Assembly: GCA_033485155.1 (NCBI GenBank) | Contig: JAWQJJ010000002.1 | Coordinates: 310,001-374,000, forward strand | Source of the DNA: Methanomassiliicoccus sp. | GTDB taxonomy: Archaea > Thermoplasmatota > Thermoplasmata > Methanomassiliicoccales > Methanomassiliicoccaceae | Direction of reading: 5' to 3' | Length of the DNA: 64,000 nt | Shown here: positions 10,660 through 27,950 of the stretch, piece after piece | Layout of the letters: every line of letters starts with the position of its first letter | Position numbering within the stretch: the first letter of the stretch is position 1 | Notes under the pieces: generated by a model | The model's database searches: none | What the model saw: the letters and a program-made list of their open reading frames with translations, nothing else | Told to the model about the DNA's origin: nothing | Translations under genes and position numbers: made by a program

Positions 10660-10661
10660 AC

Positions 10662-11184: not shown

Positions 11185-11201
11185 TTGGATGATACATCCA
11201 A
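11185..11201. promoter_or_regulatory. TTGGAT-N5-ATCCAA operator at the hem operon promoter
   Basis: TTGGATGATACATCCAA is a perfect 6-5-6 palindrome. It abuts the TATA-like TTAAATA at 11202-11208 of the plus-strand precorrin-2 dehydrogenase/hem operon. A further half-like CTGGAT lies 11 bases upstream (11174). Near-identical palindromes stand at the promoters of the cbi operon (24876) and the corrinoid adenosyltransferase (38474). The site is also about 60 bases upstream of the divergent cfb TATA, so it might influence both directions. Confidence 0.65.
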
Positions 11202-11867: not shown

Positions 11868-13145
11868 ATGGACTCCATACTGAGCGCGCACATCACCCAC
11901 AAGCAGGCCCGCATGGCCGACATCGAGAAGCTGGGAGAATTGGACCCGTCCAGGTTGATGAGGGCGGCCATTTCGTTGCCTGGAGTCAACGAATGCATCG
12001 CCTTGCGGACCTGTAATCGGGTGGAGATCTACCTTGCCACCGAAGACATCAACGCCTCCAGGAAGGGTCTGGAGGACCTCGTTAATGGCCTGGTGCCGTT
12101 CGACATCGACCAGAACCTGGTGCAGTACCTCTCGGGCAGGGACTCGGTGAAGCACATCCTGCGGGTCGCCAGCGGGCTGGAGTCGATGATCATCGGGGAG
12201 GACCAGATCCAGTCCCAGGTCAAGGAGGCGTACGAGCGCGCCGAGCGCGAGGGTACCGTCGGTCCGATGCTTTCCATCGTCTTCCGCAAGGCCATCTCCG
12301 TGGGCAAGAAGGTCCGGACCGAGACCCGGCTCAACAAGGGCTGTGTCTCCATCGGCACCGCCGCGGTCGAGCTGGCCGAGGAGAAGCTGGGCACTCTGAA
12401 AGGGAAGAACATTCTGGTGGTCGGCGCCGGAGAGATGGCCACCCTCGTCGCCAAGCACCTGGTGGGCAAGGAGCCGATGACGGTGTTCGTATCCAACCGC
12501 ACCTACTCCCGGGCGGTCGAGCTGGCATGGGTCCTCAACGGGAAGGCGGTGCGGTTCGACAATTTCGTGGAGTTCATATCCCAGGCTGACGTCGTTCTCG
12601 TGGCCACATCGGCGACGCACATGGTGCTGACCAGGAGCCACATGGAGAAGGCGATGGCTTCCCGGACGCTGGAAAGCGAGATAATTGTCATCGACGTCAG
12701 CTTCCCCCGCAACGTGGAAGCGGAGGTCGCCGAGTTGCCCGGCGTGGAATATTTCGATATCGACGGCCTGCGCGGCAAGGCGGAGGAGAACCTCCTGAAG
12801 CGTCGCGCCGAGATCCGCAGCGCGGAGAAGATAATCACATCGGAGCTGGAGTCCGTCGGGGCGCATATCAAGGAGATGAGGGCCAACGAGCTCCTGGGGC
12901 GCCTGTATGGCAAGTATGCCGAGATGAAGGAACGGGAGGTCCGCAAGGCCTTGAACCGCTTATCGTCGGGCAAGGAACCGGCCGACGCGGTCCTTCAGGA
13001 CCTCGCCGATGTGATGACCAAGAAGTTCCTGGCTGACCCCACCAAGGTGCTGAAGGAAGCCTTCCGGGAGGGGGATGAGGAGATAATCGAGATAATCGAG
13101 GGCATTTTCAGATTGGACGGTGTAATTAATGTTTCCAGCAAGTAG
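11868..13145 (+). CDS. hemA: HemA, glutamyl-tRNA reductase
   Basis: The 425-residue protein has the catalytic Cys at C49 in ALRTCNRVEIYL, the segment SGLESMIIGEDQIQSQVK, and an NADP-binding GAGEMATLVAKHL. It reduces glutamyl-tRNA-Glu to glutamate-1-semialdehyde, the first committed step of the C5 tetrapyrrole route. The dimerisation domain at the C-terminus is complete. It overlaps hemB by 17 bases. As first enzyme of the pathway it is the natural control point for the palindrome at 11185. Confidence 0.96.
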   Translation: MDSILSAHITHKQARMADIEKLGELDPSRLMRAAISLPGVNECIALRTCNRVEIYLATEDINASRKGLEDLVNGLVPFDIDQNLVQYLSGRDSVKHILRVASGLESMIIGEDQIQSQVKEAYERAEREGTVGPMLSIVFRKAISVGKKVRTETRLNKGCVSIGTAAVELAEEKLGTLKGKNILVVGAGEMATLVAKHLVGKEPMTVFVSNRTYSRAVELAWVLNGKAVRFDNFVEFISQADVVLVATSATHMVLTRSHMEKAMASRTLESEIIVIDVSFPRNVEAEVAELPGVEYFDIDGLRGKAEENLLKRRAEIRSAEKIITSELESVGAHIKEMRANELLGRLYGKYAEMKEREVRKALNRLSSGKEPADAVLQDLADVMTKKFLADPTKVLKEAFREGDEEIIEIIEGIFRLDGVINVSSK

Positions 13146-14103
13146 AGGCCGAAGGCTTCGCATGAGGCCTGCCCTTAGGGACCTTGTCAGGGAGAACGAG
13201 CTGTCGGTCAAGGACCTCGTGTATCCGATGTTCGTCAACGAAACCCTCAGCGCCCCCAAGGGGATCGCCTCCATGCCTGGCATCAGCGCTTTCCCGCTTG
13301 GCGACATCGGCAGGGAGGCGAAGGCGGCGAGCGACGCGGGCATCCCTGCAGTCCTGCTGTTCGGTATACCACGCATCAAGGACGCCCGGGGGAGCGGTGC
13401 ATGGGCTGAGGATGGTATCACACAGAGGGCCATCCGCGAGATCAAGACGTCGTCCGACGTCCTGGTCATCGCCGACCTGTGCCTGTGCGAGTACACCGAT
13501 CACGGCCACTGCGGCGTGGTGCACGGCGATGTGGTGGACAACGACTCGACCCTTGAGCTGTACGGCCTCACCGCCATAAGCCAGGCCGAGGCCGGGGCGG
13601 ACGTCATCGCGCCCTCGGGCATGATGGATGGTCAGGTGAAGGTGATCCGAGAATCGCTAGATGAGGCTGGCTTCGAGGACGTGCCCGTCATGTCATACGC
13701 CGCCAAGTACGCCTCGGCGTTCTACGGCCCGTTCCGTGATGCGGCGGAGAGCGCCCCCCGGTCAGGGGATCGGAGAACGCACCAGATGGACCCTGCTAAC
13801 TCCAGGGAGGCCATCAGGGAGATGCGCCAGGACGTGGAGGAGGGCGCCGACATCCTCATGGTCAAGCCCGCGCTCCCGTATCTGGACATTGTCCGCGAGG
13901 CCCGCTCTACCTTCGATCTGCCCATCGCCGCTTATAACGTGAGCGGGGAGTACTCAATGATAAAGGCGGCTGCAGCCAACGGCTGGTTGGACCACAACCG
14001 GGCGATGATGGAGGCGCTCCTTTCGATCAAGCGGGCAGGGGCGGACATGATCATCACCTACTTCGCCAGGGAGGCCGCCGCGCTGCTGGAGGGTAAGCCA
14101 TGA
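13129..14103 (+). CDS. hemB: HemB, delta-aminolevulinate dehydratase
   Basis: The 324-residue enzyme condenses two 5-aminolevulinate molecules into porphobilinogen. The zinc-binding cysteine cluster LCLCEYTDHGHC, the Schiff-base lysines in MSYAAKYASAFYGPFR and MVKPALPYLD, and the N-terminal RGRRLRMRPALRDL are all present, so it is the Zn-dependent type. The start at 13129, inside the end of hemA, gives the full N-terminal arm expected of the family. Confidence 0.96.
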   Translation: MFPASRGRRLRMRPALRDLVRENELSVKDLVYPMFVNETLSAPKGIASMPGISAFPLGDIGREAKAASDAGIPAVLLFGIPRIKDARGSGAWAEDGITQRAIREIKTSSDVLVIADLCLCEYTDHGHCGVVHGDVVDNDSTLELYGLTAISQAEAGADVIAPSGMMDGQVKVIRESLDEAGFEDVPVMSYAAKYASAFYGPFRDAAESAPRSGDRRTHQMDPANSREAIREMRQDVEEGADILMVKPALPYLDIVREARSTFDLPIAAYNVSGEYSMIKAAAANGWLDHNRAMMEALLSIKRAGADMIITYFAREAAALLEGKP

Positions 14104-15374
14104 GCGAGCGGTCCAGGCAAATGTATGAGAGAGCGAGATACCTGATGCCCGGAGGGGTCTCCTCCCCGGTGCGCGCGTTCCGGCCTTATCCCCGCTATAT
14201 CGCCTCGGCGAAGGGCTCCCACATCACCGACGTCGACGGCAGGGAGTACATAGATCACTGCATGGCCTTCGGCCCCCTGATCCTCGGTCATGCCCACCCG
14301 GTGGTCGTTGCGGCCTTGAAGGAACAGGCCGAGAGAGGGACTCTCTACGGCGCACCGATCGAGGCCGAGATTGAGTTCGCCGAAACGATCACCAAGAACT
14401 TCCCATCCATGGAGATGCTGCGCATCGTGAGCAGCGGGACCGAGGCGACCATGCACGCCCTTCGGCTGGCCAGGGGATACACCGGGCGGAAGAAGGTCCT
14501 CAAGTTCGAGGGATGCTTCCACGGTGCCCACGACGCCGTCCTGGTGAAGGCCGGCTCCGGCGCCACGACCCACAGCGCCCCCAATTCCCTCGGGGTGCTG
14601 GAGGAGGTGGCCTCGAACACCCTGCTGGCGCCTTACAATGATCTGGCTTCGGCCCAGCGGGTGCTTAAGGCCAACCGGGGGGAGGTAGCGGCGATCATCG
14701 TCGAGCCGGTCATGGGCAACGTCGGTCCGGTGCTGCCCCACGAGGGGTACCTCCAGGGCCTCCGGGAGCTGGCCACCGAGCACGGCTCGCTGCTCATATT
14801 CGACGAGGTCATCACCGGCTTCCGGCTGAGCATGGGCGGGGCCCAACGCCTATATGGCGTCACCCCGGACATGACCACCCTGGGCAAGATCGCCGGGGGA
14901 GGGATGCCCATCGGGGCGTTCGGGGCATCGGAGGAGATCATGAGCATGGTGTCGCCGGTGGGGAAAGTCTACCAGGCCGGCACATTCTCCGGCAACCCCA
15001 TGTCCCTGGCCGCCGGGCTGGCGACCATCAGGGAGCTGGAGCGCCAGGGCCATGAGGCCCTCGACCGAAAGGGGGCCGCCCTTCGCGATGGGCTGAGGGA
15101 TGCGCTCTCCGACAGCAAGGTCCCCCACCAGGTGGCGGGAATAGGTTCGATGTTCCAGCTGTTCCTCTCACCCGAGCCGGTGAAGAATTACCAGGATGCC
15201 CTGCGCGCCGACACCGCGCTGTTCGACCGTATGTTCCTCCGGCTGCTGGAAAACGGCGTCTACCTGGCGCCATCGCAGTTCGAGACGAACTTCCTGTCCA
15301 CGGCGCACAGCGACGAGGACGTGCGGCGGGTGGTCGATGCCATCGCCGAGGCCCTCACGGAGGTCTCCTCATGA
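14100..15374 (+). CDS. hemL: HemL, glutamate-1-semialdehyde 2,1-aminomutase
   Basis: The 424-residue PLP enzyme isomerises glutamate-1-semialdehyde to 5-aminolevulinate. It has the N-terminal MPGGVSSPVRAF, the SGTEATMHALRLARG segment, DEVITGFR, and the PLP lysine in TTLGKIAGGGMPIGAFG. Length is typical. It overlaps hemB and hemC by four bases each. Confidence 0.96.
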   Translation: MSERSRQMYERARYLMPGGVSSPVRAFRPYPRYIASAKGSHITDVDGREYIDHCMAFGPLILGHAHPVVVAALKEQAERGTLYGAPIEAEIEFAETITKNFPSMEMLRIVSSGTEATMHALRLARGYTGRKKVLKFEGCFHGAHDAVLVKAGSGATTHSAPNSLGVLEEVASNTLLAPYNDLASAQRVLKANRGEVAAIIVEPVMGNVGPVLPHEGYLQGLRELATEHGSLLIFDEVITGFRLSMGGAQRLYGVTPDMTTLGKIAGGGMPIGAFGASEEIMSMVSPVGKVYQAGTFSGNPMSLAAGLATIRELERQGHEALDRKGAALRDGLRDALSDSKVPHQVAGIGSMFQLFLSPEPVKNYQDALRADTALFDRMFLRLLENGVYLAPSQFETNFLSTAHSDEDVRRVVDAIAEALTEVSS

Positions 15375-16261
15375 TCATCGGCACCCGCGGGAGCGCCCTC
15401 GCTCTCGCCCAGACCACCATGGTGGTCTGGGAGCTGGGGAGGTGCAGCCCGGAGGTCGACATCGAGGTCCGGGAGATCAAGACCATCGGGGACAGGGTCA
15501 CCGACCGTCCCCTGGCCTCCCTCGGCGGTTATGGAGCGTTCACTAAAGAGCTTGATCAGCGCATCGTCTCGGGGGAGATCGACGCGGCGGTCAACAGCCT
15601 CAAAGACATGCCCGTCGACCTCACCCCCGGAACCGAGCTGGCAGCGGTCCTGCCGCGGGGCCCGGTGGAGGACATCCTCCTTTCGAGATACCCGCTCGAG
15701 GACCTGCCCAAGGGGGCGGTGGTCGGCTCGTCCAGCGTGCGCCGCCGTTCCATGCTGCTGTGGAAGAGGCCTGACCTTGAGGTCAGGGACCTGCGCGGCA
15801 ACGTCCCAACAAGGATCAGGAAGTGGAAGGACGGGGAGTACGACGCCATCGTGCTGGCCCGGGCGGGCTTGTCCCGCCTGGGGATCGAAGAGCGGGGCTT
15901 TACCCTGGACCCCGAGGTATTCATTCCCGCGGTCGGTCAGGGGGCCATCGCCGTCGTGTGCGCCGCGGGCAGCCAACATCTCCCCATCCTTCGTCGGCTG
16001 GACGATGAGAGGACGAGAACGGAGGTGGAGGCCGAGCGTTTTGTCCTGCGGGCTCTCGGCGGCGGCTGCTCGGTGCCCATCGGGGTGTGGGCTTCGAAGC
16101 AGGGCAACGCCCTTCGCGTCCGGGGCTCGGTGGTCTCCGAGGCCCCGCCGGAAAGGGCGTTCGTCGACCGGACGATTCCGCTGGATAACCTGAAGGAAGG
16201 TCTGACAGCGATAGCCGAGATCCTGGGTCCAGTGGTCGGGGGGTGCGATGTTGGCCGGTGA
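15371..16261 (+). CDS. hemC: HemC, hydroxymethylbilane synthase
   Basis: The 296-residue porphobilinogen deaminase starts with the family motif IIGTRGSALALAQT. It contains SLKDMPVDL and the dipyrromethane-cofactor cysteine in LGGGCSVPIGV near residue 235. It polymerises four porphobilinogens into hydroxymethylbilane. It overlaps cobA by 14 bases. Confidence 0.95.
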   Translation: MIIGTRGSALALAQTTMVVWELGRCSPEVDIEVREIKTIGDRVTDRPLASLGGYGAFTKELDQRIVSGEIDAAVNSLKDMPVDLTPGTELAAVLPRGPVEDILLSRYPLEDLPKGAVVGSSSVRRRSMLLWKRPDLEVRDLRGNVPTRIRKWKDGEYDAIVLARAGLSRLGIEERGFTLDPEVFIPAVGQGAIAVVCAAGSQHLPILRRLDDERTRTEVEAERFVLRALGGGCSVPIGVWASKQGNALRVRGSVVSEAPPERAFVDRTIPLDNLKEGLTAIAEILGPVVGGCDVGR

Positions 16262-16994
16262 GGTGTACCTCGTGGGCGCGGGGCCGGGAGACCTCGGGCT
16301 GATCACCGTCCGGGGCATGGATCTGGTGAGGTCGGCGGACGTGATCGTCTACGATCAGCTGGCCAACCCTGACCTGCTGTCTCAGGCGCGGCCCGGAGCC
16401 AAGCTCATCGATGTCGGGAAGCAGGGCGGCCACCACAAGGTGAAGCAGGAAGGTATCAACCGCATCATCGTCGAGGAGGCCCAGCAGGGCCGCAGGGTCA
16501 TCCGTCTGAAGGGCGGAGACCCATTCATGTTCGGGCGGGGAGGGGAGGAAGCCGAGGAGCTCCGGAAGGCCGGTGTCGCCGTGCACGTGGTCCCTGGAGT
16601 CACCTCAGCCATCGCCGCCCCGGCCATGGCCGGGATCCCGGTCACCCATCGCGATCATGCGCCTCTCGTCACCTTCGTCACCGGCCACGAGCGCGATGAC
16701 CGGCCGGATGAGAGAATCAACTGGGCCGCGCTGGCGCGGACGGGAGGGACCATCGTGATCCTCATGGGCATGGCTAACCTGGACCAGAACATGGCCCGGC
16801 TGGTCGCCGAGGGCATGGACCCCTCGACTCCGGTGGCGGTGGTACACCGGGGATCCACCCCGTCCCAGAAGGTGGTGCTTTCCAACCTTGAAAGCATCGC
16901 CGAAGAGTGCCGCCGCCAGGACATCGGCGCCCCGGCGGTGGTCGTGGTCGGCGGAGTCGCCAATCTCGGTGAGGTCCTGGGTGATCTCCGATGA
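16248..16994 (+). CDS. cobA: CobA, uroporphyrinogen-III C-methyltransferase (SUMT)
   Basis: The 248-residue SAM-dependent enzyme has the family landmarks VYLVGAGPGDLGL, VIVYDQL, GGDPFMFGRGGEE and VPGVTSAIAAPA. It methylates uroporphyrinogen III at C2 and C7 to make precorrin-2, the substrate of the dehydrogenase that opens this operon. No heme-specific gene is seen beyond this point, so the operon appears to serve siroheme, F430 and B12. It overlaps hemD by four bases. Confidence 0.94.
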   Translation: MLAGEVYLVGAGPGDLGLITVRGMDLVRSADVIVYDQLANPDLLSQARPGAKLIDVGKQGGHHKVKQEGINRIIVEEAQQGRRVIRLKGGDPFMFGRGGEEAEELRKAGVAVHVVPGVTSAIAAPAMAGIPVTHRDHAPLVTFVTGHERDDRPDERINWAALARTGGTIVILMGMANLDQNMARLVAEGMDPSTPVAVVHRGSTPSQKVVLSNLESIAEECRRQDIGAPAVVVVGGVANLGEVLGDLR

Positions 16995-17764
16995 GGCTGG
17001 CGGTCATGAGGCCGAAGGACAAGTTGGAGGAATCCATCCTCGCGGCCCGGGAGATGGGCTTCGAGGTCGTGGCCGCCTCTCCCCTCCGGATCGAACCGAA
17101 CGACGGGCCAGAGTTCGATGCTTTCCTGACCTCGGCGAGGGACGGCAAGGTGGACGTCGTCGTGCTGACAAGCTCCACCGGGGTGGACGCTCTGGTCAAG
17201 ATGATGTCGAGGCGGGGAGAGAACGTGGCATCGCTTCTCTCATCTTCCTTCCGCATCGCCATCGGCCCCCTCACCGCCAAGGCCATGGCGGCCAGGGGCA
17301 TCGCGGCGGATGTCATTCCTGATGAGTACTCGTCCGAAGGGATCATCCGGCAGATGGCCAAGGACCTGGCGTACAAGCGGGTCTTTCTCCTGCGCTCGGC
17401 GCACGGCGAGCGGATCCTCTTCGACGGCCTGGTCCAGGCTGGTGCCGAGGTCACCGAAGTGATCCTCTACGATCTGGTGGCCGATCCCAAGAGCGCGGAG
17501 GTTCGTTACCTGGTGGAGGAAAGCATGGCAGGGCGGGTGGACGCTTTCGCTTTCTCCTCATCGCTATCGGCTGCCGCGTTCATCGAGGCGGCGGAGGGGA
17601 TCGCCTCCCGCCACGAAGTGATAGGAATGCTCAACTCCCGACTAGTGGGAGCCATGGGGGGACCGACGAGGAAGCGGCTGGAGCAGATGGGGGTGCGCGT
17701 CCAGGCGGTGCCGACCAACGCCACCTTCCGGGACCTCGTGGCGGAGCTCAGGACCAAGTCCTGA
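16991..17764 (+). CDS. hemD: HemD, uroporphyrinogen-III synthase
   Basis: The 257-residue protein shows the weakly conserved HemD fold: RLAVMRPKDKLEES at the start, VVLTSSTGVDAL, FRIAIGPLTAKAMAARG, and FSSSLSAAAFIEAAE. It inverts ring D while closing hydroxymethylbilane to uroporphyrinogen III. HemD sequences diverge strongly, so the call leans on its place directly after cobA and on length. It is the last gene of the operon and faces cbiA across a 70-base gap holding a hairpin. Confidence 0.88.
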   Translation: MRLAVMRPKDKLEESILAAREMGFEVVAASPLRIEPNDGPEFDAFLTSARDGKVDVVVLTSSTGVDALVKMMSRRGENVASLLSSSFRIAIGPLTAKAMAARGIAADVIPDEYSSEGIIRQMAKDLAYKRVFLLRSAHGERILFDGLVQAGAEVTEVILYDLVADPKSAEVRYLVEESMAGRVDAFAFSSSLSAAAFIEAAEGIASRHEVIGMLNSRLVGAMGGPTRKRLEQMGVRVQAVPTNATFRDLVAELRTKS

Positions 17765-17817: not shown

Positions 17818-17839
17818 GCTGAACTATCGTCTGTTCAGC
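17818..17839. terminator. Hairpin between convergent hemD and cbiA
   Basis: GCTGAAC, an eight-base loop, then GTTCAGC form a perfect seven-pair inverted repeat. It spans the cbiA stop codon (17835-17837) and lies 54 bases after the hemD stop. The position between convergent operons suggests a two-way transcript end. No long T-run follows, so termination activity is uncertain. Confidence 0.4.
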
Positions 17840-19187
17840 CTTCCCTCAGACAGGAGCGGGCCAACCCCCTGGCGAACTCAAGATTGCTCCCGAAATGTAG
17901 GTGGAGGTACGAGGCCAGGGCGTTCCCTTTCACCAGGCCGTCCTTCGGCCCGTCAATGCCCTTGCTCCTCGAAAGCTCGTAGCAGAAGCTTCGCTCCCCA
18001 TGGCTGGCGACGCGGGAATAATGGAACACATGGCCTCTCGTGACCCCGCCGGCGGGGGAGAGGACGCAATCGTCGACGCATCTTGCCTCGACATATCCCA
18101 AGGCCTGGAGCTTGGAGGTCATCTCCACCTTGGCATCGAACACCCCTGCCATCTCCCTCTCTGCGCCGTCCAACCCCCGGACCGTTCGGCAGAGGTACAT
18201 CAGGCCGCCGCACTCTGCGTAGACCGGGGCGCCCTCCTCGACCCTCCTTGCTAGCGATCCGATGGCCGTAGCATTGGAAGCGAGCCCGTCAAGATGTAAC
18301 TCGGGGTAACCTCCTCCGAAGTAATAGCCGTCGGCGTCGGGCAGGTCCCCGTGCAGCGGGGAGAACTCGACCACGCTGGCTCCCAACGATCGCATGATGT
18401 CCAGGTTGTCCTCGTAGTAAAAGTTGAAAGCTTCGTCCCTGGCCACCGCAAGGCGGAAATCGCCCATGCGTTCAAGGCACGGTCTCTTTTCTTCGATCCA
18501 GCCGGGGGCCTCCGAGGCGATGCGCCACAACTGGTCCAGGTCCAAGTGAGCCTCGACCATCTCCCTTATGCCGTCATACCTGCAGCTGTTGTCCGTCTCC
18601 TTCGCCGGTACCAGTCCCAGATGTCTGCTCTCCAGCTGGATGTCCTTGTTCTTCGGTATCCCGCCCAGGCTCACCAACCCCAGGCCTTGGATGGCGTCCT
18701 CAAGCATGCCGAGGTGCCTCGTCCCGCCGACCCGGTTGAAGATGACCCCCCTAAGGTCGACCGCCGGATCGAAGGTCTTGAATCCCTTGGCCACCGCTCC
18801 GACGCTCCGGGCGGTGGAGGCAGCATCGAGGACCAGGATGACCGGGCAGCCGAGCCTTTTGGCCAGGTGAGCGGAGCTGCCCTCCTCCGAACGGCCGTCC
18901 AGGCCGTCGTACAGCCCCATCGCCCCCTCGATCACGCTGATGTCGGCGCCGTCGGACGCCGCCTGGAATGCCGTGGGGACCCAACCCGAAAACATCCAGG
19001 TGTCGAGGTTCCTCGAGATGCGGTCCCCGACCTCGTTATGGTGCATGGGGTCCAGGAAGTCCGGCCCAGTCTTGAATGGCTGTACCTCCAGCCCCCGCGC
19101 CCTCAGGGCGGCGAGGATGCCCACGGTGATGGTCGACTTTCCCGTTCCGCTCCTCTCCCCGGCGATCAGGACCCTTGGGCGTAACAT
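17835..19187 (-). CDS. cbiA: CbiA, cobyrinate a,c-diamide synthase
   Basis: The 450-residue paralogue of CfbB has ATP site AGERSGTGKST, the FKTGPDFLDPMHHN segment and a class I glutaminase with Cys in VYAECGGLMYL and His in GHVFHYSRV. It amidates the a and c side chains of cobyrinate in B12 synthesis. Placement at the end of the cbi operon supports the corrinoid rather than the F430 substrate. It starts four bases after the cbiE stop. Confidence 0.92.
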   Translation of the reverse strand: MLRPRVLIAGERSGTGKSTITVGILAALRARGLEVQPFKTGPDFLDPMHHNEVGDRISRNLDTWMFSGWVPTAFQAASDGADISVIEGAMGLYDGLDGRSEEGSSAHLAKRLGCPVILVLDAASTARSVGAVAKGFKTFDPAVDLRGVIFNRVGGTRHLGMLEDAIQGLGLVSLGGIPKNKDIQLESRHLGLVPAKETDNSCRYDGIREMVEAHLDLDQLWRIASEAPGWIEEKRPCLERMGDFRLAVARDEAFNFYYEDNLDIMRSLGASVVEFSPLHGDLPDADGYYFGGGYPELHLDGLASNATAIGSLARRVEEGAPVYAECGGLMYLCRTVRGLDGAEREMAGVFDAKVEMTSKLQALGYVEARCVDDCVLSPAGGVTRGHVFHYSRVASHGERSFCYELSRSKGIDGPKDGLVKGNALASYLHLHFGSNLEFARGLARSCLREG

Positions 19188-19191
19188 TTGA

Positions 19192-19776
19192 TCAACCGTC
19201 CTTCACGAGTATGAGGGAGAACAGCTTGGAGGAAATTGTAGGCAGGCGCCCGGGATTGCCGAAGGAGATGATCTCATCGGGATACCCAAGGTTCTCGAAG
19301 ACAACGATGGTGCAGTCGAGGCCCCGCTCGATCATCAAGGCGGCCAGGGCCCTGAGGTCGAACCCCGGCTCGGTGAGCACGAAGGGTATTCTCCCCCTGG
19401 TCACTTCGTCCAGCATCTCCTGCCGGGCGGCCCCCTCGTCCTTTCCGTGAGCGTCCACTACCACCGCCTTGGTCAACGGGAGGCGCAGCCGGGAGAACGC
19501 GCATTGCATCGAGGATATCCCGGGGATGACCTCCTCCCCTAGATGGCCGAGGCCTGCTAGCATGGGGTCGCCGGTCGATAGCAAGATGGCGTCCCGGGGC
19601 AGGTCGTCCAGACGGGAGTAGTCCTTCAGCGGGGTGACCTGGCAGTGAGGCGGGATGTACGGGCCGGCGAGTTCCAGCGCCCGCTTTGAGCCATACACCC
19701 GTTCGGCGGCACGGAGGCGGGCCACGGCATCCGTTGTCATCATTCCCGGGCCGCAACCGACCCCTATCACGATCAT
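19192..19776 (-). CDS. cbiE: CbiE, cobalt-precorrin-7 C5-methyltransferase
   Basis: The 194-residue SAM-dependent tetrapyrrole methylase begins MIVIGVGCGPGMMTTDA, then carries LLSTGDPMLAGLG and EVIPGISSMQCAFSRL. It works with CbiT (24348) to add the C5 and C15 methyl groups; in many bacteria the two are fused as CobL, while here they are separate. It overlaps cbiD by four bases. Confidence 0.92.
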   Translation of the reverse strand: MIVIGVGCGPGMMTTDAVARLRAAERVYGSKRALELAGPYIPPHCQVTPLKDYSRLDDLPRDAILLSTGDPMLAGLGHLGEEVIPGISSMQCAFSRLRLPLTKAVVVDAHGKDEGAARQEMLDEVTRGRIPFVLTEPGFDLRALAALMIERGLDCTIVVFENLGYPDEIISFGNPGRLPTISSKLFSLILVKDG

Positions 19777-20780
19777 GGCACGGCCTCCATCACCCGGCCC
19801 GCCCGATCGATGATTACGATGCCATGCCCGGGGTATAGCGATTTGAACCTCTGGACTGAGGTGTGAAGCAGGTTCGGCCCGTCTCGGGAATGGACAACTT
19901 CCTCGATCGTTCTCTCTTTGCGGCCTTCCAGCACCGACGGGTCGATGAACTTGATGATCAGCGCGGGGAGACCGAACAGAGTCAGACCTTGCTTCCTGGA
20001 GTCCAGCGCTTCCCTGATGTTCGCGCCTACCAGGACGACTTCCTGGTCGGGATATCGCAACCGTGCGTACTTCAGCCCGACCCGACCGGTGGTGATCACT
20101 GCCTTTTCCGCCCTCTTGGCTCTTTCAATGGAGTCCTGGCCGAGATGGTCGTCCCACGGTTCCACCAGGCCGGTAGAGCCTAGAACCGAAATGCCGCCCA
20201 GGACCCCAACGCGGTGGTTGAGGGTCCTGAGAGCAATCCGATCCCCGTCGACCGCTTCCAGATAGATCAGCGCGCCCTTCTGTCCACGGGCCCGACAGGC
20301 TGCGGTCACTGACGAGAGGATGCATGCCATGGCCGTGTGGCTGATGGCCGCATCTCCTTTACCGTATCGAGGGGTGTCGTGGTCCCATCGGCCGATCCCG
20401 GGACCGACGTCCAAACTTGTTTCGTCCTGGTACCTGATGAACATGGCCCTGAACTCGGTCCCTGCCGTCGCATCGTCGGGGTAGTCCCCGGGATACTTGT
20501 AGCAGGCGGCACTTCCATGGCCGGCTAGGACCTCTACCGGTACGATGATGCCGCATGCGATGGTGACGTTGACCTCTCTCAGCTCCTTGACCCCCAAAGA
20601 CTCGATGGCTGCCTGGCATGCGGCTGCCGCGGTCGTTCCGGTGGTATATCCCCTTCTAAGCACCTTGCCATCGGAGGTGAGCACCGCGAGTCCGCTCTCG
20701 ACGAACGAGAGGTCGTCCCGCTCTTTGCATAATGAGATCCACTGCTCAGGGTACTCGAATTTAGAGACCGGATCTATCAT
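19773..20780 (-). CDS. cbiD: CbiD, cobalt-precorrin-5B C1-methyltransferase
   Basis: The 335-residue protein has the family start LRRGYTTGTTAAAACQAAI and the SAM-related segment VLGGISVLGSTGLVEPWDD. CbiD methylates C1 after ring contraction in the anaerobic (early cobalt) route and has no counterpart fold among the other methylases. Overlaps with cbiC and cbiE are four bases each. The first 45 residues before the TTGTT motif are somewhat longer than in bacterial CbiD. Confidence 0.93.
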   Translation of the reverse strand: MIDPVSKFEYPEQWISLCKERDDLSFVESGLAVLTSDGKVLRRGYTTGTTAAAACQAAIESLGVKELREVNVTIACGIIVPVEVLAGHGSAACYKYPGDYPDDATAGTEFRAMFIRYQDETSLDVGPGIGRWDHDTPRYGKGDAAISHTAMACILSSVTAACRARGQKGALIYLEAVDGDRIALRTLNHRVGVLGGISVLGSTGLVEPWDDHLGQDSIERAKRAEKAVITTGRVGLKYARLRYPDQEVVLVGANIREALDSRKQGLTLFGLPALIIKFIDPSVLEGRKERTIEEVVHSRDGPNLLHTSVQRFKSLYPGHGIVIIDRAGRVMEAVP

Positions 20781-21442
20781 TTCACATTCTTCTCCGCGAA
20801 CATGGTTATCAGCTCGTTGATGGAGGCCACAGCCACCGGGGTGCCTCCCCTGGTGCCCTCGGTGGAAATCGACGGAATGTCCAGCTTACGAAGTTCATCC
20901 TTCGACTCCGCGGCATTGACGAACCCCACCGGACACCCGATCACCAGGGCCGGCCGGATCCCCTTCCCGATCAGCTCGCACAGGGAAAGGAGGCAGGAGG
21001 GGGCGTTGCCGATGACCACGATCGATCCCTTCAGCTCATCGCCCAGGGCCAGCATTCCCGCGCTCGTCCGGGTGATGCCCTTCGACGCGGCGATCTCTGG
21101 ACCGTGGTCCAGCAGGCAATCCACCCTCGATCCGTGGCCCCGCTTCTGAATGCCGATCTGTACCATGCGGATGTCCGCGTAGATGGTGGCCCTGACCTCC
21201 AGGGCGTCGAGGCCGGCCTGGACCGCCCCATGGTTGAACCGCAGGAGATCGGCCATGGCGAAGTCCCCCACGGCGATGGAGCACCGCTGCCGGATCCGGT
21301 CCTCCAGGCTGACGTTGCCGACCATTCTGCGGGCAAGCTGCCGACTGCGGCTGGATATGCTGTAGCCTTCTGCCGTATCCGCACCCAGATCAATATACGT
21401 ACTTTCGGTGGTAGCCTCTTGGCGTGATGATTCCTTTGACAT
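20777..21442 (-). CDS. cbiC: CbiC, cobalt-precorrin-8 methylmutase
   Basis: The 221-residue protein moves the methyl group from C11 to C12 to give cobyrinate. Recognised segments are GADTAEGYSISSRSR, ATIYADIRMVQIGI, and IGNAPSCLLSLCELI with a following PALVIGCPVGFVNAAESK. The ATG at 21442 has a GGGAGAGC ribosome site and lies 53 bases inside the end of cbiH, an unusually long overlap in another frame. Confidence 0.93.
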   Translation of the reverse strand: MSKESSRQEATTESTYIDLGADTAEGYSISSRSRQLARRMVGNVSLEDRIRQRCSIAVGDFAMADLLRFNHGAVQAGLDALEVRATIYADIRMVQIGIQKRGHGSRVDCLLDHGPEIAASKGITRTSAGMLALGDELKGSIVVIGNAPSCLLSLCELIGKGIRPALVIGCPVGFVNAAESKDELRKLDIPSISTEGTRGGTPVAVASINELITMFAEKNVK

Positions 21443-22184
21443 GCTCTCCCTCCCTTAGAAGCCTGGTGCCCTCTCCGCCGATGATCACCATCGAATGCAT
21501 ATCGACCATGCTGTCATCCTCGTAAAGCGACCCGAGGTCAGTGACCGCGCAGCTCTCTCCCTCTCCACGATAGGCGTTCCTGACGATGCCCACCGGCGTA
21601 TCCGGTTTTGCATGGCGGAGGCCGATTTCCAGCGCTTTCCTCAGGTTACTGGGGCGGTTGTGGCTCCGGGGATTGTAAACCGCCATGGGGATCCCCATCT
21701 GGAACCCGAGGTCGAGGCGCTTTTCGATAACCTCCCAGGGAGTCAGGAGATCGCTCAGCGAGATGATCAGAAAATCACTGGACAGCGGAGAGCCGAGGAT
21801 CGATGCCGCGGCGGTGGCCGCGGTGACGCCGGGCACTATCTTCACCTCAAGGCCCGGAGCCTCGTGCTGTGCAAGCTCCAAGACGATGCTGGCCATGCCA
21901 TAGACCCCGGCGTCCCCGCCGCTGACCATGGCGACTTTATGGTCTATGGCCATATGGACTGCCTCCCTGGCCCGGTCCACCTCCCTTCCCATATGGGAGT
22001 TGATGACTTTTTTACCCTCCAACAGCGGCTGCATCTGTTCCAGGTAGAATTGGTTGCCGATGATGACCTCTGACTCGGTGATGGCTTTCCGTGCCAATGG
22101 AGTGAGGTTGTCCAGGTCTCCGGGACCGGTGCTGACCACGTACAGCTTTCCTTTGGTCTCATCTTGTGATCGCGACTGTGACAT
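21390..22184 (-). CDS. cbiH: CbiH, cobalt-precorrin-3B C17-methyltransferase
   Basis: The 264-residue SAM-dependent methylase catalyses C17 methylation with ring contraction. It has KLYVVSTGPGDLDNLTPLA, SGGDAGVYGMAS, IVPGVTAATAAASILG and the late SVPL-like region PVGIVRNAYR. Its N-terminus overlaps cbiG by 26 bases; the first ten residues (MSQSRSQDET) are non-conserved. It lacks the iron-sulfur extension seen in CbiH60-type proteins. Confidence 0.92.
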   Translation of the reverse strand: MSQSRSQDETKGKLYVVSTGPGDLDNLTPLARKAITESEVIIGNQFYLEQMQPLLEGKKVINSHMGREVDRAREAVHMAIDHKVAMVSGGDAGVYGMASIVLELAQHEAPGLEVKIVPGVTAATAAASILGSPLSSDFLIISLSDLLTPWEVIEKRLDLGFQMGIPMAVYNPRSHNRPSNLRKALEIGLRHAKPDTPVGIVRNAYRGEGESCAVTDLGSLYEDDSMVDMHSMVIIGGEGTRLLREGEHVKGIITPRGYHRKYVY

Positions 22185-23022
22185 TTCCGTATGCCCTCCT
22201 ACTCATGACGATCTCCTTCCTTTTTGCCAGCGCGAGGGCCGATGGCTCGGCCACTCCCACCAGGCCGATGAGTTCGGCCTTCGACGGGACCACGATCTGA
22301 GAGTTGATCGTCTCATCATCGATGAGGAATAGCCTCCCGCCCATCTCCCTGACTGCCTCCAGCAGACCGGCCTCATCGGCCTTCTTAACCGTTGACGTGA
22401 ATGCCAGCACATCTCGCGGGTCGATCCCGGCGGCGGTCAAGGAATCCATCACCGCCGCTCTGATCTCTTCGGCGGAGGTGCCGCGGTTGCAGCCGATACC
22501 TACCACATACTCCCCTTTGGTCGCCAGGACGGACACGTTGGACGATGCCAGCACGACTGCTGGCCCGTCAACCCGGAATACGGGGACGTCGCCTTGCAGG
22601 AACGCCTTGTTCACCGCCACCGTCGAGCTCTTGTTCACGACCTCCAGGCCGTGCCTGGCAGCGATCCCCTCCACCGAGTCCCTCCCCAGGGCATCGGTGG
22701 CGGTGGAGAGGACCGGCACGATGTCGTGGCCAGACAAGGTCCTGGCGATTTCGTTGGCGCCGTGGTGACCCCCGAGCACTGGGACGCAATAATTGAGGTC
22801 TGGGGTGACCACGGTAACGGCGGGATCAATCCATTTGTCCTTCAACAGTGGCGCTATTCTTCTTACCACGATCCCCATGGCCATGATCGCCACGATGGCC
22901 TCATGCTCCTGGAACGCTCTCTCGAATGCATCGTCCGAATATTCGACGATCTCCGCGTCCAGCCACCCGGCCAGGGTCTCAGCCTGAGCCTGATGGCCGG
23001 CGTGGACCACCGCGATTCTCAT
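22159..23022 (-). CDS. cbiG: CbiG, cobalt-precorrin-5A hydrolase
   Basis: The 287-residue protein opens the delta-lactone ring, releasing acetaldehyde. The N-terminal half has IVAIMAMGIVVRRIAPLLKD and PVLGGHHGANEIARTLSG; the C-terminal half has VVGIGCNRGTSAEEIR and FTSTVKKADEAGLLEA. Both CbiG halves are present in normal order. It overlaps cbiF by four bases. Confidence 0.93.
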   Translation of the reverse strand: MRIAVVHAGHQAQAETLAGWLDAEIVEYSDDAFERAFQEHEAIVAIMAMGIVVRRIAPLLKDKWIDPAVTVVTPDLNYCVPVLGGHHGANEIARTLSGHDIVPVLSTATDALGRDSVEGIAARHGLEVVNKSSTVAVNKAFLQGDVPVFRVDGPAVVLASSNVSVLATKGEYVVGIGCNRGTSAEEIRAAVMDSLTAAGIDPRDVLAFTSTVKKADEAGLLEAVREMGGRLFLIDDETINSQIVVPSKAELIGLVGVAEPSALALAKRKEIVMSRRAYGNVTVAITR

Positions 23023-23738
23023 GAGTATAGCACCGACCTATGGTACCGCCCCATGGGATCCACTATGCCGCCGATGATGATGAGGGCGGTCTTGTGGATG
23101 CCCGCCTCCTTGGCCTTCTGGGCGATATCGGAGACGCAGCCCTGCACAATCTTCTGGTCCGGCCAGGAAGCATGGTAGATAACCGCCGCGGGGGTGTCCG
23201 GCGGGCAGCGTAGCTTCTCCACTATCGCGGCAAGCTTGTCGGTACCCAGGAATATGACCATGGACGTTCCGGCTTCGGACAGCTTGGCGATGTCATCCTC
23301 CTCCAATGTCTCACCGGCCGGTCGGGTGATGATAAGCGTTTCCGAGACCCCTTTGAGAGTATACTGAGTCTTCAGCGCGGCGGAGGCGGCGAACAGAGAA
23401 CTGACGCCGGGAATGATCCTGACCTCCACGCCGTGCCGTTCAAGTTCGGCGATCTGCTCCACGATTGAGCCGTAAAGGGCCGGGTCCCCGCTGTGCAGGC
23501 GGACCACCCGCTTCCCAGCGAGGGCGGCGTCGACCATGACGGGGACCATCTCTTCGACCTTCATCCCCCAGCTGTCCAGCTTCACCTCCGCCCTGGACCT
23601 TTCGACCAGCGTGGGATTGACCAGCGACCCGGCATAAATCAGGACGTCCGCCCCTACCAATAGATCATTCCCTCGCATGGTGATGAGATCGGGATCCCCG
23701 GGACCGGCGCCGACGAACCATACTACTGGCGCGTCCAT
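23019..23738 (-). CDS. cbiF: CbiF, cobalt-precorrin-4 C11-methyltransferase
   Basis: The 239-residue SAM methylase has VWFVGAGPGDPDLITMRG, LIYAGSLVNP, VRLHSGDPALYGSIVEQ and IIPGVSSLFAASAALK, diagnostic of the CobM/CbiF group. It methylates C11 of cobalt-precorrin-4. It lies one base from cbiL. Confidence 0.95.
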   Translation of the reverse strand: MDAPVVWFVGAGPGDPDLITMRGNDLLVGADVLIYAGSLVNPTLVERSRAEVKLDSWGMKVEEMVPVMVDAALAGKRVVRLHSGDPALYGSIVEQIAELERHGVEVRIIPGVSSLFAASAALKTQYTLKGVSETLIITRPAGETLEEDDIAKLSEAGTSMVIFLGTDKLAAIVEKLRCPPDTPAAVIYHASWPDQKIVQGCVSDIAQKAKEAGIHKTALIIIGGIVDPMGRYHRSVLYS

Positions 23739-23739
23739 G

Positions 23740-24348
23740 TCACGCCCTCCGGGCGAACATCACGCTCATGTAGTCGCACCTTTCCGGCATTTCGTCCTCG
23801 TCGTACACCTTCTCGTTCTCCAGGTACATCCTCTCCACCAGGTGGAACTTCGAGTAGCCAGAAGAGCGCAATCGAGCTATAGTGTCTCGGGGAGAGCGTA
23901 CCTTTAGCAGCACCAGGCACTCATTGTCCGAACCGTCGGTGACCATGAATCCGGAGTTGACCGGAACCTGCAGCCTGGAGGCGAACGCCGTTATCGAGCT
24001 GATGCCTGGCTCGACCGCGATATCGATCTCCGGATATGTGTCCTTCAGGATCTCGCACTGTCGTGAGAAGGTCGAGTAGAAGTTGGGGTCCCCCAGTATG
24101 CCCAGTACCGCCGTTCCCCTGATCGCCACCGGGGCGATCAGCTCGGCGTTCCGCTCCAAGGCCTGTCTGATGGCCTCCTCATCGTTGACCATAGGGAACT
24201 CCAGCACGATCGGATCGCAATGATCCCTCACCAATTCCCTGGCCATCTTGCCGGGGACGAACACCTTGTCCGCCGAGCGGAGCAGGCGGACGGCCTTTAG
24301 GGTAAGAAGCTCCTTGTCCCCCGGTCCCAGGCCCAGGCCGATGAGCAT
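23740..24348 (-). CDS. cbiL: CbiL, cobalt-precorrin-2 C20-methyltransferase
   Basis: The 202-residue SAM methylase has LIGLGLGPGDKELLTLKAV and LGDPNFYSTFSRQCEIL with EPGISSITAFASRL, the CobI/CbiL pattern. It methylates C20 of cobalt-precorrin-2, the first corrin-specific step. Its ATG shares a base with the cbiT stop. Confidence 0.93.
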   Translation of the reverse strand: MLIGLGLGPGDKELLTLKAVRLLRSADKVFVPGKMARELVRDHCDPIVLEFPMVNDEEAIRQALERNAELIAPVAIRGTAVLGILGDPNFYSTFSRQCEILKDTYPEIDIAVEPGISSITAFASRLQVPVNSGFMVTDGSDNECLVLLKVRSPRDTIARLRSSGYSKFHLVERMYLENEKVYDEDEMPERCDYMSVMFARRA

Positions 24349-24872
24349 CAGCCCACCTCGCCCACGATAATGAATACTGGATCGATAGGCTTGAACATGA
24401 TGCTGCCCGCCAGGTTATGGGAGCGGCAGACCTGTACCTGGGTCGCCTCCTTGAAGATGCCCAGCTTGACCATGGTATCCACCGCCTGGTTCATCGATTT
24501 CAGGAGGACGGTGTTTACAACGATGCGCCCATGGACCTTGTCATTAAGGAGGCCCAACATGTCGTTTAACCGTCTGGTCCCCCCGACGAACGCCCCGTCC
24601 AGGTCCTCGCAATCCTTGAGGAATTCCAGCCCATCCTGCTGGCGTACCTCCACATTGACGCGCCCCCATGCTTTGACGTTAACACGGGATGCTTCGATGG
24701 CCTCGTTCCGCACATCGATGGCGTAGACCTTGTCGGCGGTCTCTCCCATAGCGATCGCCACCTTGCCGGTGCCGCAGCCGATGTCGGCGAGGATATCGCC
24801 CTTCTTTATCCCGAGCTTTTGGATGGAAACGGCCATGACCTCGTCTTGGGTCGGCCCGCCCTTGAACCTCAT
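24348..24872 (-). CDS. cbiT: CbiT, cobalt-precorrin-6B C15-methyltransferase (decarboxylating)
   Basis: The 174-residue class I SAM methyltransferase has GGPTQDEVMAVSIQKLGI, the SAM site LADIGCGTGKVAIAMGE, and DLDGAFVGGTRRLNDML. It methylates C15 and removes the acetate carboxylate. It is the first gene of the nine-gene cbi operon. I use the ATG at 24872 rather than the TTG one codon earlier. The start lies three bases after an operator-like palindrome and about 27 bases after a TATA-like CTTAAATATG, so the mRNA is probably almost leaderless. Confidence 0.93.
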   Translation of the reverse strand: MRFKGGPTQDEVMAVSIQKLGIKKGDILADIGCGTGKVAIAMGETADKVYAIDVRNEAIEASRVNVKAWGRVNVEVRQQDGLEFLKDCEDLDGAFVGGTRRLNDMLGLLNDKVHGRIVVNTVLLKSMNQAVDTMVKLGIFKEATQVQVCRSHNLAGSIMFKPIDPVFIIVGEVG

Positions 24873-24875
24873 CAA

Positions 24876-24892
24876 TTGGAGATATCATCCAA
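24876..24892. promoter_or_regulatory. TTGGAT-type operator at the cbi operon start
   Basis: On the minus strand the sequence is TTGGATGATATCTCCAA, matching the hem-promoter palindrome at 14 of 17 positions. It sits between the TATA-like element (24893-24904) and the cbiT ATG, over the predicted transcription start. A protein bound here would block initiation. Confidence 0.65.
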
Positions 24893-24904
24893 CTCATATT
24901 TAAG
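24893..24904 (-). promoter_or_regulatory. TATA-like element of the cbi operon
   Basis: CTTAAATATGAG (minus strand) is the best TATA match upstream of cbiT. It is flanked on both sides by the palindromic operator copies, whose centres are 29 bases apart. Confidence 0.5.
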
Positions 24905-24921
24905 ATGGAAATAGCATCCAA
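24905..24921. promoter_or_regulatory. Second, degenerate TTGGAT-type site
   Basis: Minus strand TTGGATGCTATTTCCAT keeps the left half perfectly and four of six bases of the right half. It lies just upstream of the TATA-like element, three helical turns from the first copy. Confidence 0.5.
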
Positions 24922-25085: not shown

Positions 25086-25982
25086 CTACGGGTTGCACCC
25101 CTGCCCCTCTTTGGTCTCGGTCGGATGGATGTGGACCCTGATACTTTTCGCTTTGATCTGTTTCACCGCTTCATCTATGCAGAAGGGCAGCTCGTCCGTC
25201 ATATAGCCGATCGAGGACAACACCTTGAACAGGCGAGCGATCTCCGGCACATCAAGCTCCGAAGCTTCGAGGAGGCTTTCGTCCGACAGTATGGTCCGCA
25301 CATCGCCGCTGGCCAGGACCTTCCTTTTCAGCACTACGATGCGGGTGGCGAAATCGGGGACGGCGTTGACATCATGGGTCGCCACGATGATCGTCTTACC
25401 CTCGGCGGTCATGCGCTTGAGCAGATCGACCACCCCCCTCCTGCTCCGCGGGTCGAGATCCGAGGTCGGTTCATCGAACAACAGTATTTCCGGCTCGAGG
25501 GAGAGGACCGATGCGATGGAGACCTTTCTCTTCTCCCCGCCGCTCATGCGATACGGAGCTCGGTCACGAAGGTGCTGGATGCCAAGAAGCTCCAACACCC
25601 TCTCCCCTCGGGCGATGACCTCATCGGTCGGGAGGCCCATATGGAGAGGGCCGAATATGATGTCGTTCCACGCCGTGGAGTTGAACAGGGCAACATCGGA
25701 ATCCTGAAAGACAATTCCCAACTTCTCCCTGAGCCATTCAAGTTCGTGAGGCTTCTCGACGCTTTCCGCGGTGACTGCCTTGCCCATGATGGTCAGTGTG
25801 CCGGACGAGATGGGGATGAGCCCGGCGATGATCTGCAGCAGGGTGGACTTTCCGGCACCATTGGGTCCGACGATGGCAATAGCTTCGCCCTTCTTGATGT
25901 CCAGGTCGAGCCCGTCGAGTGCGACATTTCCATCCGGATACCTATACATGACTCCTTTTAATGAGACGATTGATTGCTCCAT
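25086..25982 (-). CDS. cbiO: CbiO, ECF-type cobalt/nickel transporter ATPase
   Basis: The 298-residue ATPase has Walker A VGPNGAGKST, Q-loop GIVFQDSDVALF, signature MSGGEKRKVSIASVL and Walker B ILLFDEPTSDLD. It powers metal uptake with CbiM, CbiN and CbiQ. The C-terminal region beyond about residue 235 (SLLEASELDVPEIARLF onward) extends further than in minimal CbiO and ends in a Cys/His-containing tail (VHIHPTETKEGQGCNP). It is the last gene of cbiM-N-Q-O. Confidence 0.93.
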   Translation of the reverse strand: MEQSIVSLKGVMYRYPDGNVALDGLDLDIKKGEAIAIVGPNGAGKSTLLQIIAGLIPISSGTLTIMGKAVTAESVEKPHELEWLREKLGIVFQDSDVALFNSTAWNDIIFGPLHMGLPTDEVIARGERVLELLGIQHLRDRAPYRMSGGEKRKVSIASVLSLEPEILLFDEPTSDLDPRSRRGVVDLLKRMTAEGKTIIVATHDVNAVPDFATRIVVLKRKVLASGDVRTILSDESLLEASELDVPEIARLFKVLSSIGYMTDELPFCIDEAVKQIKAKSIRVHIHPTETKEGQGCNP

Positions 25983-25988
25983 GATTTC

Positions 25989-26858
25989 TCACATTCCGAT
26001 GATCGAGAGAAGTCCGTGCAGGTTATTCGGCACCAGTAGATCGAAGCAGGTGACGATCGCCATGAACCCCACTATAACCATAGCGAATACTTTATCGATT
26101 CGGCCGCTTCGGAACTCGGCCATCATACGAGGCCTGCCGGTGTAACCCCTGGAAACCATGGCCATGTAGACATTCTCGCTCATCTGATAGGATTTACTGA
26201 ACAGGCTCGCCACGACCGAACTACCGATATTGCGAAGCTCTTTGGACGTCGGTTTGCCCACCATCCTGCTCTTCCTGGCGATGAACATATTCGCCACCAT
26301 GTCCAGCAGCACATGGATGTATCGATAGGTCATATCCATGGTGACCACGAACGCTGGAGGTAATCGTAGCTGGGCCATTGTGCGCATCAATCGTGACCAG
26401 CCAATGGTGGCGACCATCAGTACGCTGAAGGTTACGGCCGCTCCGACCCGGAGCGTGAAGGTCATGGCGAATGCCAAACCTTCTCTGGTTAGGTAGAAGG
26501 TGGTCCCAAAGACCTCCAGGGCAGGACCGACCTGGTGGCCGGGAGTGATCAGGCTGGTCATCGCTGGGATCAGGATCACCACTGTGAACAACGGGACGAA
26601 GAGCCACACCCGCTTGAAAAGCCATTTCAGCGGTATGTTCGACATAAGAGCGAGCCCGGTCGAAAGGCCGATCATGAGCAGTATACTCATGGGACTGTGC
26701 AACAGCACAGTGACCACGACGAGAGAGATCAGAAGGAGAAAAACAAAGCGAGGGTCAAGGCGTTGCAGGGCCCCGTCCCTCGCCGACATCGTTTCCATGT
26801 CCAGCGACTGCTGGGCGACCTTGGTTATCTCGGACAGCAGTCGCTCGAACATGCTCAA
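25989..26858 (-). CDS. cbiQ: CbiQ, ECF transporter transmembrane subunit
   Basis: The 289-residue membrane protein has about five helices. The conserved EcfT/CbiQ coupling motifs are SRGYTGRPRMM late in the protein and ARKSRMVGKPTSKELR in the cytosolic loop. It couples CbiO hydrolysis to the substrate-binding CbiM. It overlaps cbiN by four bases and ends six bases before cbiO. Confidence 0.92.
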   Translation of the reverse strand: MSMFERLLSEITKVAQQSLDMETMSARDGALQRLDPRFVFLLLISLVVVTVLLHSPMSILLMIGLSTGLALMSNIPLKWLFKRVWLFVPLFTVVILIPAMTSLITPGHQVGPALEVFGTTFYLTREGLAFAMTFTLRVGAAVTFSVLMVATIGWSRLMRTMAQLRLPPAFVVTMDMTYRYIHVLLDMVANMFIARKSRMVGKPTSKELRNIGSSVVASLFSKSYQMSENVYMAMVSRGYTGRPRMMAEFRSGRIDKVFAMVIVGFMAIVTCFDLLVPNNLHGLLSIIGM

Positions 26859-27178
26859 CCCGAGGAGTCGTCGTTATTCTTGCGTGCCAATGCCTTGCTA
26901 AGAAGGTATGTGACCACGATTATCGCCACCACTCCGACCAGGGCCGAGATGATGTAGCCAAGCGAGGCCATGAACTGGCCCTCCCATCCGCTGAGATCGT
27001 AGTCCGGGAATGGGGCGTTCCAGAATTGCTGGGGCGCCCACTCCCCGACCTCGCCCCATTCGCCCCAGGCGTCGCCGTAATCCCACACCACAAGAATGCC
27101 AATAGGGGACACAACCGCAAGGACGAGAAGGATCGCCAGCCACTTCTTTGGGAATGTTGATAGTTTCGCATCGACCAT
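26855..27178 (-). CDS. cbiN: CbiN-like / PDGLE-type auxiliary subunit
   Basis: The 107-residue protein has two membrane helices flanking an extracytoplasmic loop with DAWGEWGEVGEW and APFPDYDLSGW. This arrangement and the Pro-Asp-Tyr signature are typical of the CbiN/PDGLE subunit that accompanies CbiM in archaeal cobalt or nickel importers. A charged tail (ARKNNDDSSG) ends the protein. It lies one base after cbiM and overlaps cbiQ. Confidence 0.82.
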   Translation of the reverse strand: MVDAKLSTFPKKWLAILLVLAVVSPIGILVVWDYGDAWGEWGEVGEWAPQQFWNAPFPDYDLSGWEGQFMASLGYIISALVGVVAIIVVTYLLSKALARKNNDDSSG

Positions 27179-27179
27179 C

Positions 27180-27950
27180 TCAGTTGCCTCCTTTTACCTC
27201 GGCTGGAGCTTTCTTCTTCCCCACGGGCTGCGATGCCTTTCCGAGGTCCTCCTTGAGCATACCCTGCATCCAATTCGGGGCCAGCTTCTTCAGCTGGAGC
27301 AGATCAGGCCTGTGGTCCGCAAGGTAATAGACGACCGCTGCCGTGGCCAAACCTTCCACGATGCCCACCAAGAGGTGTACCGAGACCATCGCCGGAATCG
27401 CCACGTCCAATCCATAGGGAGCGTAACCAGGAGCGATCGCCGGTTGCAGTCCGAACTCGATAGCAGCGCAGAGCGCAGCAAGGTTCAGGCCAACATATCC
27501 CCCAACGAAGGCTGCTACGGCCCTCTGTCCGGGGATGGACATCTTGCCTCTCTCCAACAGCTTCTTGACGCCGACATAGGCCAGGATGCCTGTGAACGGC
27601 ATTACGACGCCCATGTTGAAGACATTGGCCCCAAATGCGGTGATCCCGCCATCTCCGAACAATAACGCCTGGATCAGGAGAGCGATGCTCAGGGCAATGG
27701 TCGCCCCATATGGACCTAACACGATGGCTGCAAGTACTGCCCCGACCATATGGGCCGTGGTCCCGTCCGGAATCGGCAGGTTGAACATCATAAGGATGAA
27801 CGACAGAGCGGCCATGAACGAAAGCATGGGCACATTGCGCGGTCCCAAATTTTTATTTGCATTCCTAAATGCAAAGAACCATATAACCAGCATGACCAGG
27901 AACAATATTCCCCAGGTCGCTGGCCCCAAATATCCATCTGGAATATGCAT
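27180..27950 (-). CDS. cbiM: CbiM, cobalt/nickel-binding transporter subunit
   Basis: The 256-residue membrane protein begins MHIPDGYLGPATWGILFLVM. The N-terminal Met-His and the following region form the metal site in Cbi/NikM. The later MPFTGILAYVGVKKLL segment fits the family. Whether cobalt or nickel is the substrate cannot be decided by sequence alone; the adjacent B12 operon suggests cobalt, but a methanogen also needs much nickel. Codons near 27855-27875 hold a perfect 8-4-8 inverted repeat (TTTGCATT / AATGCAAA), probably chance. A palindrome at 27980-28002 covers its predicted transcription start. Confidence 0.93.
   Translation of the reverse strand: MHIPDGYLGPATWGILFLVMLVIWFFAFRNANKNLGPRNVPMLSFMAALSFILMMFNLPIPDGTTAHMVGAVLAAIVLGPYGATIALSIALLIQALLFGDGGITAFGANVFNMGVVMPFTGILAYVGVKKLLERGKMSIPGQRAVAAFVGGYVGLNLAALCAAIEFGLQPAIAPGYAPYGLDVAIPAMVSVHLLVGIVEGLATAAVVYYLADHRPDLLQLKKLAPNWMQGMLKEDLGKASQPVGKKKAPAEVKGGN

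Follow-up and report, generated by a model that had tools for sequence, protein, structure and literature searches.

It is likely, in our view, that the two sites flanking the TATA box of the cbi operon in Methanomassiliicoccus sp. are operators of a corrinoid and tetrapyrrole regulon spread across the order Methanomassiliicoccales, through which a dimeric protein shuts the operon when there is enough corrinoid or, less likely, cobalt. Members of this order are H2-dependent methyl-reducing methanogens of guts and wetlands that depend on corrinoid methyltransferases, and they probably run a protein-controlled B12 regulon. The regulon appears to be new, and its surprising part, if confirmed, would be a corrinoid-sensing archaeal repressor; the literature searched, which comprised open-access papers, held no description of the motif TTGGAT-N5-ATCCAA or of the regulon.

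Table 1. Operators, TATA-like box and operator-linked genes in the window, the 64,000-nucleotide stretch of Methanomassiliicoccus sp. DNA analysed here.
Feature	Position	Strand	Remarks
Nine-gene cbi operon, cbiT-L-F-G-H-C-D-E-A	17835-24872	minus	NCBIfam, gene calls
cbiT, first gene of the operon	24348-24872	minus	ATG at 24872; best NCBIfam matches are CbiT models; orthologues found
Proximal operator TTGGAGATATCATCCAA	24876-24892		one mismatch against TTGGAT-N5-ATCCAA; flanked by TATA box and cbiT start codon
TATA-like box CTTAAATATG of the cbi operon	24895-24904	minus	between the two operators
Distal operator ATGGAAATAGCATCCAA (minus strand TTGGATGCTATTTCCAT)	24905-24921		two mismatches; directly upstream of TATA box, where the BRE is expected
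cfb (coenzyme F430) operon: CbiX-type chelatase (cfbA), cfbE, cfbD, cfbC, cfbB	6136-11060	minus	divergent from hem across the 11185 operator
Exact operator TTGGATGATACATCCAA	11185-11201		between the hem and F430 (cfb) operons, which diverge
hem operon: precorrin-2 dehydrogenase-like protein, hemA, hemB, hemL, hemC, uroporphyrinogen methyltransferase, hemD	11259-17764	plus	downstream of the 11185 operator; hemA and hemB named by family search, remaining names read from translations
Exact operator TTGGATGTATAATCCAA	38474-38490		ahead of cobA
cobA/btuR ATP:corrinoid adenosyltransferase	38504-39049	plus	Pfam CobA_CobO_BtuR, 2.7e-64

Read on the minus strand, the sequence of the cbi promoter is TTGGATGCTATTTCCAT-CTTAAATATGAG-TTGGATGATATCTCCAA-TTG-ATG. 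As the original prediction held, a site lies on either side of the TATA box, with centres at 24884 and 24913, and NCBIfam confirms all nine genes of the cbi operon that was taken to be the regulated unit. The sites had been described as TTGGAT-type, and both places are genuine, yet each TTGGAT is merely one arm of a 17-bp inverted repeat, TTGGAT-N5-ATCCAA, and it is this repeat, not the single hexamer, that is the meaningful unit. Placing the start some 25 nt downstream of the TATA box, we predict that the cbiT mRNA begins at the edge of the proximal site and carries a leader of a few nucleotides. Two further promoters in the window, which had gone unmentioned, carry the operators at 11185 and 38474. 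A CbiMNQO-like metal transporter encoded upstream of the cbi operon (25086-27827, minus strand; CbiQ confirmed by Pfam) has no TTGGAT palindrome ahead of it.

The hexamer TTGGAT by itself shows no enrichment in the window, with 20 copies vs 29 expected, and neither do palindrome matches with up to three mismatches, observations that would be in keeping with chance palindromes in an AT-rich promoter. Chance can hardly be the explanation, as it is contradicted by the exact-site counts, the matrix scores and the conservation of the sites. The 2.8-Mb genome contains 11 exact copies of TTGGAT-N5-ATCCAA, compared to none of the reversed pattern. A matrix trained on 158 intergenic exact sites of other genomes, the core of which is fixed by construction as the training sites were chosen as exact matches, so that the flanks and centre alone are informative, placed the four operators at the top of the window with 34.3 (11185), 31.3 (38474), 28.3 (24876) and 19.0 bits (24905), the next place scoring 12.4. 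By chance, 64 kb would be expected to contain 0.000 places scoring as high as the 24876 site and 0.017 scoring as high as the 24905 site.

By comparison of CbiT in a named collection, the window is close to Methanomassiliicoccus sp. UBA345 (77% identity). Two operators surround the cbiT TATA box in eight of the nine cbiT promoters compared, drawn from two families (own genome, UBA345/G012, DTU008/G010, G022, G021, G133, G135 and G125), the ninth (G015) having a single exact site near cbiT, and all eight two-site promoters have TTAAATA or a similar AT-rich box between the operators. The proximal operator is exact in UBA345 and G022, and the distal one is kept at the same place in L158, L159 and L044. 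The original prediction had set the two centres about three helical turns apart and taken this for the geometry of a cooperative repressor. The distance of 29 bp corresponds to 2.76 turns, and at cbiT the centres lie 29 bp apart in four genomes, 33 bp in two and 34 bp in another two; one of the last, G021, belongs to the same genus as the window, and its spacing is half a helical turn off 29. Since 29 and 34 bp differ by half a turn, a fixed phasing is not conserved, and other operator pairs in the order are separated by 20-44 or 69-75 bp, without the conserved integral-turn spacing of a cooperative phased double operator. An operator that needs two dimers on one helix face three turns apart would agree with the bracketing of the promoter in eight of nine genomes, and is nevertheless rather improbable given these distances at orthologous promoters and elsewhere; from the variable spacing, cooperativity may occur but is not indicated by the geometry. 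Of the earlier interpretation as a whole, the bracketed TATA box and the cbi operon stand, and control by corrinoid status is in keeping with the wider gene set, whereas the fixed three-turn geometry is not supported.

Gene calls and family searches in the source genome place exact sites ahead of hem/cfb, cobA, btuFCD-cobD-cbiB-cbiS-cobS-cobY, cobT, cbiMNQO-cbiA and a second btuFCD; sites with one mismatch precede cobN and the fur gene cluster, and the proximal cbiT operator is of this kind too. The cobalamin regulon of bacteria consists of genes for B12 biosynthesis, B12 transport and cobalt transport (PMC3766115), and the target list of bacterial cobalamin (AdoCbl) riboswitch regulons is nearly the same as that of the Methanomassiliicoccales regulon. 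Because of this agreement the signal is most likely corrinoid status, and the wider gene set (B12 and cobalt uptake, corrinoid adenosylation, nucleotide-loop assembly) is consistent with the response to corrinoid that had been suggested from the cbi promoter. The inclusion of hem and cfb leaves room for a metal or tetrapyrrole signal. The effector could be cobalt, nickel or a tetrapyrrole precursor rather than the finished corrinoid, making this a regulon of general metal-tetrapyrrole supply that includes F430, as the one exact site common to the cfb (F430, nickel) and hem operons and the presence of cbiMNQO and cobN among the targets might suggest. We consider such an effector possible but doubtful, as the recurrent core is made up of btuFCD-type uptake genes, cobA, cobT and cobS, which act after metal insertion, and the hem cluster and cbiT diverge on either side of shared sites in G125 and G135, so that hem need not mean F430.

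Some operator-linked genes of the source genome are not obviously related to corrinoids, which counts against the regulon reading: an ADH-like gene and its TrpD-like downstream neighbour, an amino-acid permease and a radical SAM protein. Paired exact sites about 71 bp apart are found at two promoters, that of the ADH-like/TrpD-like pair and that of the permease, which lies near mtaCB, and one exact site is located between the genes of the radical SAM protein and an amidohydrolase.

Exact operators occur in 128 of the 147 genomes of the order Methanomassiliicoccales, with up to 19 in each. Outside the order but within the phylum most genomes have none or one, the maximum being four, and several of these matches are one recurring sequence, TTGGATTAGCAATCCAA, which resembles a piece of a tRNA gene. 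Six complete genomes of the order lack any exact site (G004, G005, G027, G044, G104 and G111), counting against an order-wide reading. Of the 174 exact sites in the regions analysed, 169 are outside genes and 149 precede a start codon by no more than 300 bp, the distance being at most 40 bp for 61 of the latter. The targets that recur in all families examined are periplasmic B12-binding proteins, BtuC/D permeases, CobN with chelatase ATPases, CobT, SirC, CbiT and CbiA/CobQ-type synthases, many of these names being read from translations and not from family searches. As in a transcription-factor regulon, the same operator is present at many promoters beyond chance, both within the source genome and across the order, and the targets share a function that recurs across species.

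What was computed is the palindrome together with the regulon it defines, how far it is conserved and where it stands at the TATA box; protein binding, repression and the ligand are what we infer. The arms of the operator are 11 bp apart centre to centre and enclose an A/T-rich centre, an arrangement that would suit an HTH dimer of two-fold symmetry sitting on one face of the DNA. We suggest that a sequence-specific dimeric DNA-binding protein binds TTGGAT-N5-ATCCAA, its arms one helical turn apart, and that at the cbi promoter one dimer would sit over the BRE and the upstream edge of the TATA box and a second between the TATA box and the start. With corrinoid (or, less likely, cobalt) in sufficient supply, TBP/TFB or RNA polymerase would be kept off by the protein on the DNA, and the nine-gene cbi operon would be shut together with the genes for B12 uptake, cobalt uptake, salvage and adenosylation and the hem/cfb genes. 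Occlusion of TBP/TFB or polymerase by a repressor appears to be the simplest reading. An activator or dual regulator that turns the regulon on when corrinoid is scarce could also read the operator, in that the distal site is upstream of the TATA box and BRE, a position usable by archaeal activators, and 80-150 bp separate some sites from the start codon. Activation is unlikely, however, as many sites are less than 40 bp from the start codon and one lies between the TATA box and the start at cbiT, where occlusion fits better. The positions of TATA boxes relative to the operators show a modest enrichment only, which is a point against our reading.

Archaeal TATA-proximal repressors with palindromic operators include Lrp-type proteins, NrpR, TrpY and MDR1. 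The element described here resembles their operators in being an inverted repeat whose arms are spaced by one turn around a short A/T-rich centre, and in overlapping the TATA box or start region, and to our knowledge its half-site TTGGAT and the corrinoid gene set match none of these regulators. Bacteria have B12-binding protein regulators, among them CarH, a light-responsive repressor of carotenoid genes; CarH and AerR would be functional parallels if the Methanomassiliicoccales reader senses corrinoid. The widespread bacterial riboswitches other than TPP were not found in Archaea (PMC3766115). Cobalamin riboswitches are reported to be absent from archaea. Unlike the bacterial AdoCbl riboswitch, the element here is formed by DNA, as a palindrome of 17 bp at the TATA box, and a riboswitch would not fit into the short leader predicted. 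An Rfam scan of the window detected no B12 riboswitch and no other regulatory RNA family, the leader included. It is conceivable, although we entertain it tentatively and on balance lean against it, that the whole corrinoid economy of the Methanomassiliicoccales is placed under a directly corrinoid-sensing protein of a transcription-factor family not known to sense B12, an archaeal protein counterpart of the bacterial cobalamin riboswitch.

With a defined operator and a genome-wide target list, the regulator becomes findable by DNA-affinity pull-down; of the candidates examined (Fur, DtxR, NikR, Lrp-type and DUF4443 proteins) none is supported as reader. Were the reader a cobalt-sensing Fur-family repressor encoded beside cbiMNQO, the regulon would be a cobalt regulon. 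Its gene (C3:22546-22938) lies between a one-mismatch site and the exact site just upstream of cbiMNQO-cbiA, and an exact site is also found ahead of fur or cbiM in G009, G010, G012, G020 and G022. We regard this as highly unlikely, the distribution of the protein being too patchy: it occurs in only 43 of 147 genomes (63 with any PF01475 match) and is thus not found in every operator-bearing genome, near-complete genomes that have 6-19 sites do without it (G001, G019, G021, G086, G094 and G072), and nearly all fur-cbiM operons of family f6 are without a site. The Fur-family gene beside cbiMNQO is found across families f1 and f6 (L021:6547-6939, i.e. G000:C3:22546-22938, and L057-L084), in f6 mostly as a fur-cbiM operon without a TTGGAT site, and its product is a probable separate regulator of cbiMNQO, i.e. 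of cobalt (or nickel) uptake.

DtxR is near-universal and zero-site genomes have it too; three genomes of at least 90% completeness that lack it have 0, 0 and 1 sites, and no association of a DtxR/IdeR regulator with the regulon was seen. In most of the 12 loci examined its gene is beside a FeoB-like gene with no TTGGAT palindrome (up to one mismatch) nearby, and since it usually adjoins FeoB its function is probably iron. Proteins with NikR_C were present in 16 of 16 genomes, with or without sites, their presence not following the operator. Another NikR-like protein, divergent and about 130 aa long (L271:7560-7952, L281:2348-2731 and similar), perhaps a zinc-type NikR, likewise occurs with or without sites and is found beside Znu-type ABC genes in two genomes. 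Lrp-type proteins are either universal or were not found in most of the gut family, and a tandem Lrp protein encoded divergently from a site in G135 was not found in most of that family (f5).

The DUF4443 winged-helix protein, with a CggR_N-like HTH (L270, L088, L143), is an undescribed regulator. Its gene adjoins a site in G001, G002, G006 and G125, yet the protein is universal in the order, zero-site genomes included, and no positive link to the operator was found. In G001 and G125 the gene adjoins that of an archaeal SAM synthetase (L088, L143). A winged-HTH gene in the window (43982-44350, minus strand) was rejected, having a weak upstream site that is not conserved in three relatives; its 122-aa product is 93-97% identical between species of the genus, which is unusually conserved for a regulator.

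The operator flags several uncharacterised genes as probable parts of corrinoid metabolism, namely the ADH-like/TrpD-like pair with its Fe-S protein, nitrogenase-like fusions and DUF4430-type proteins. The zinc alcohol-dehydrogenase-like gene has an operator 14-137 bp upstream in several genomes (L019:2836-4984, L100, L103, L110, L125, L142, L236, L239 and L247), and in the source genome the gene of a TrpD-like glycosyltransferase comes after it and that of a 4Fe-4S protein adjoins; the pair is a candidate for a step of cobamide metabolism. Gut members encode several proteins of about 700 aa in which a NifH/CfbC-like half is fused to a NifD/NifE-like half (L129:4004-6097, assigned by family search, and L114, L118, L121, L135, L137, L192, L194, L199 and L223); many of these start 8-54 bp from an exact operator and probably have a role in tetrapyrrole or corrinoid chemistry. 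Secreted DUF4430-like (transcobalamin-like) proteins, recognised by eye and often accompanied by CbiQ/CbiO-like ABC genes, are also found under the operator (L029, L101, L105, L143 and L227), and together they may form a B12 or cobalt uptake system.
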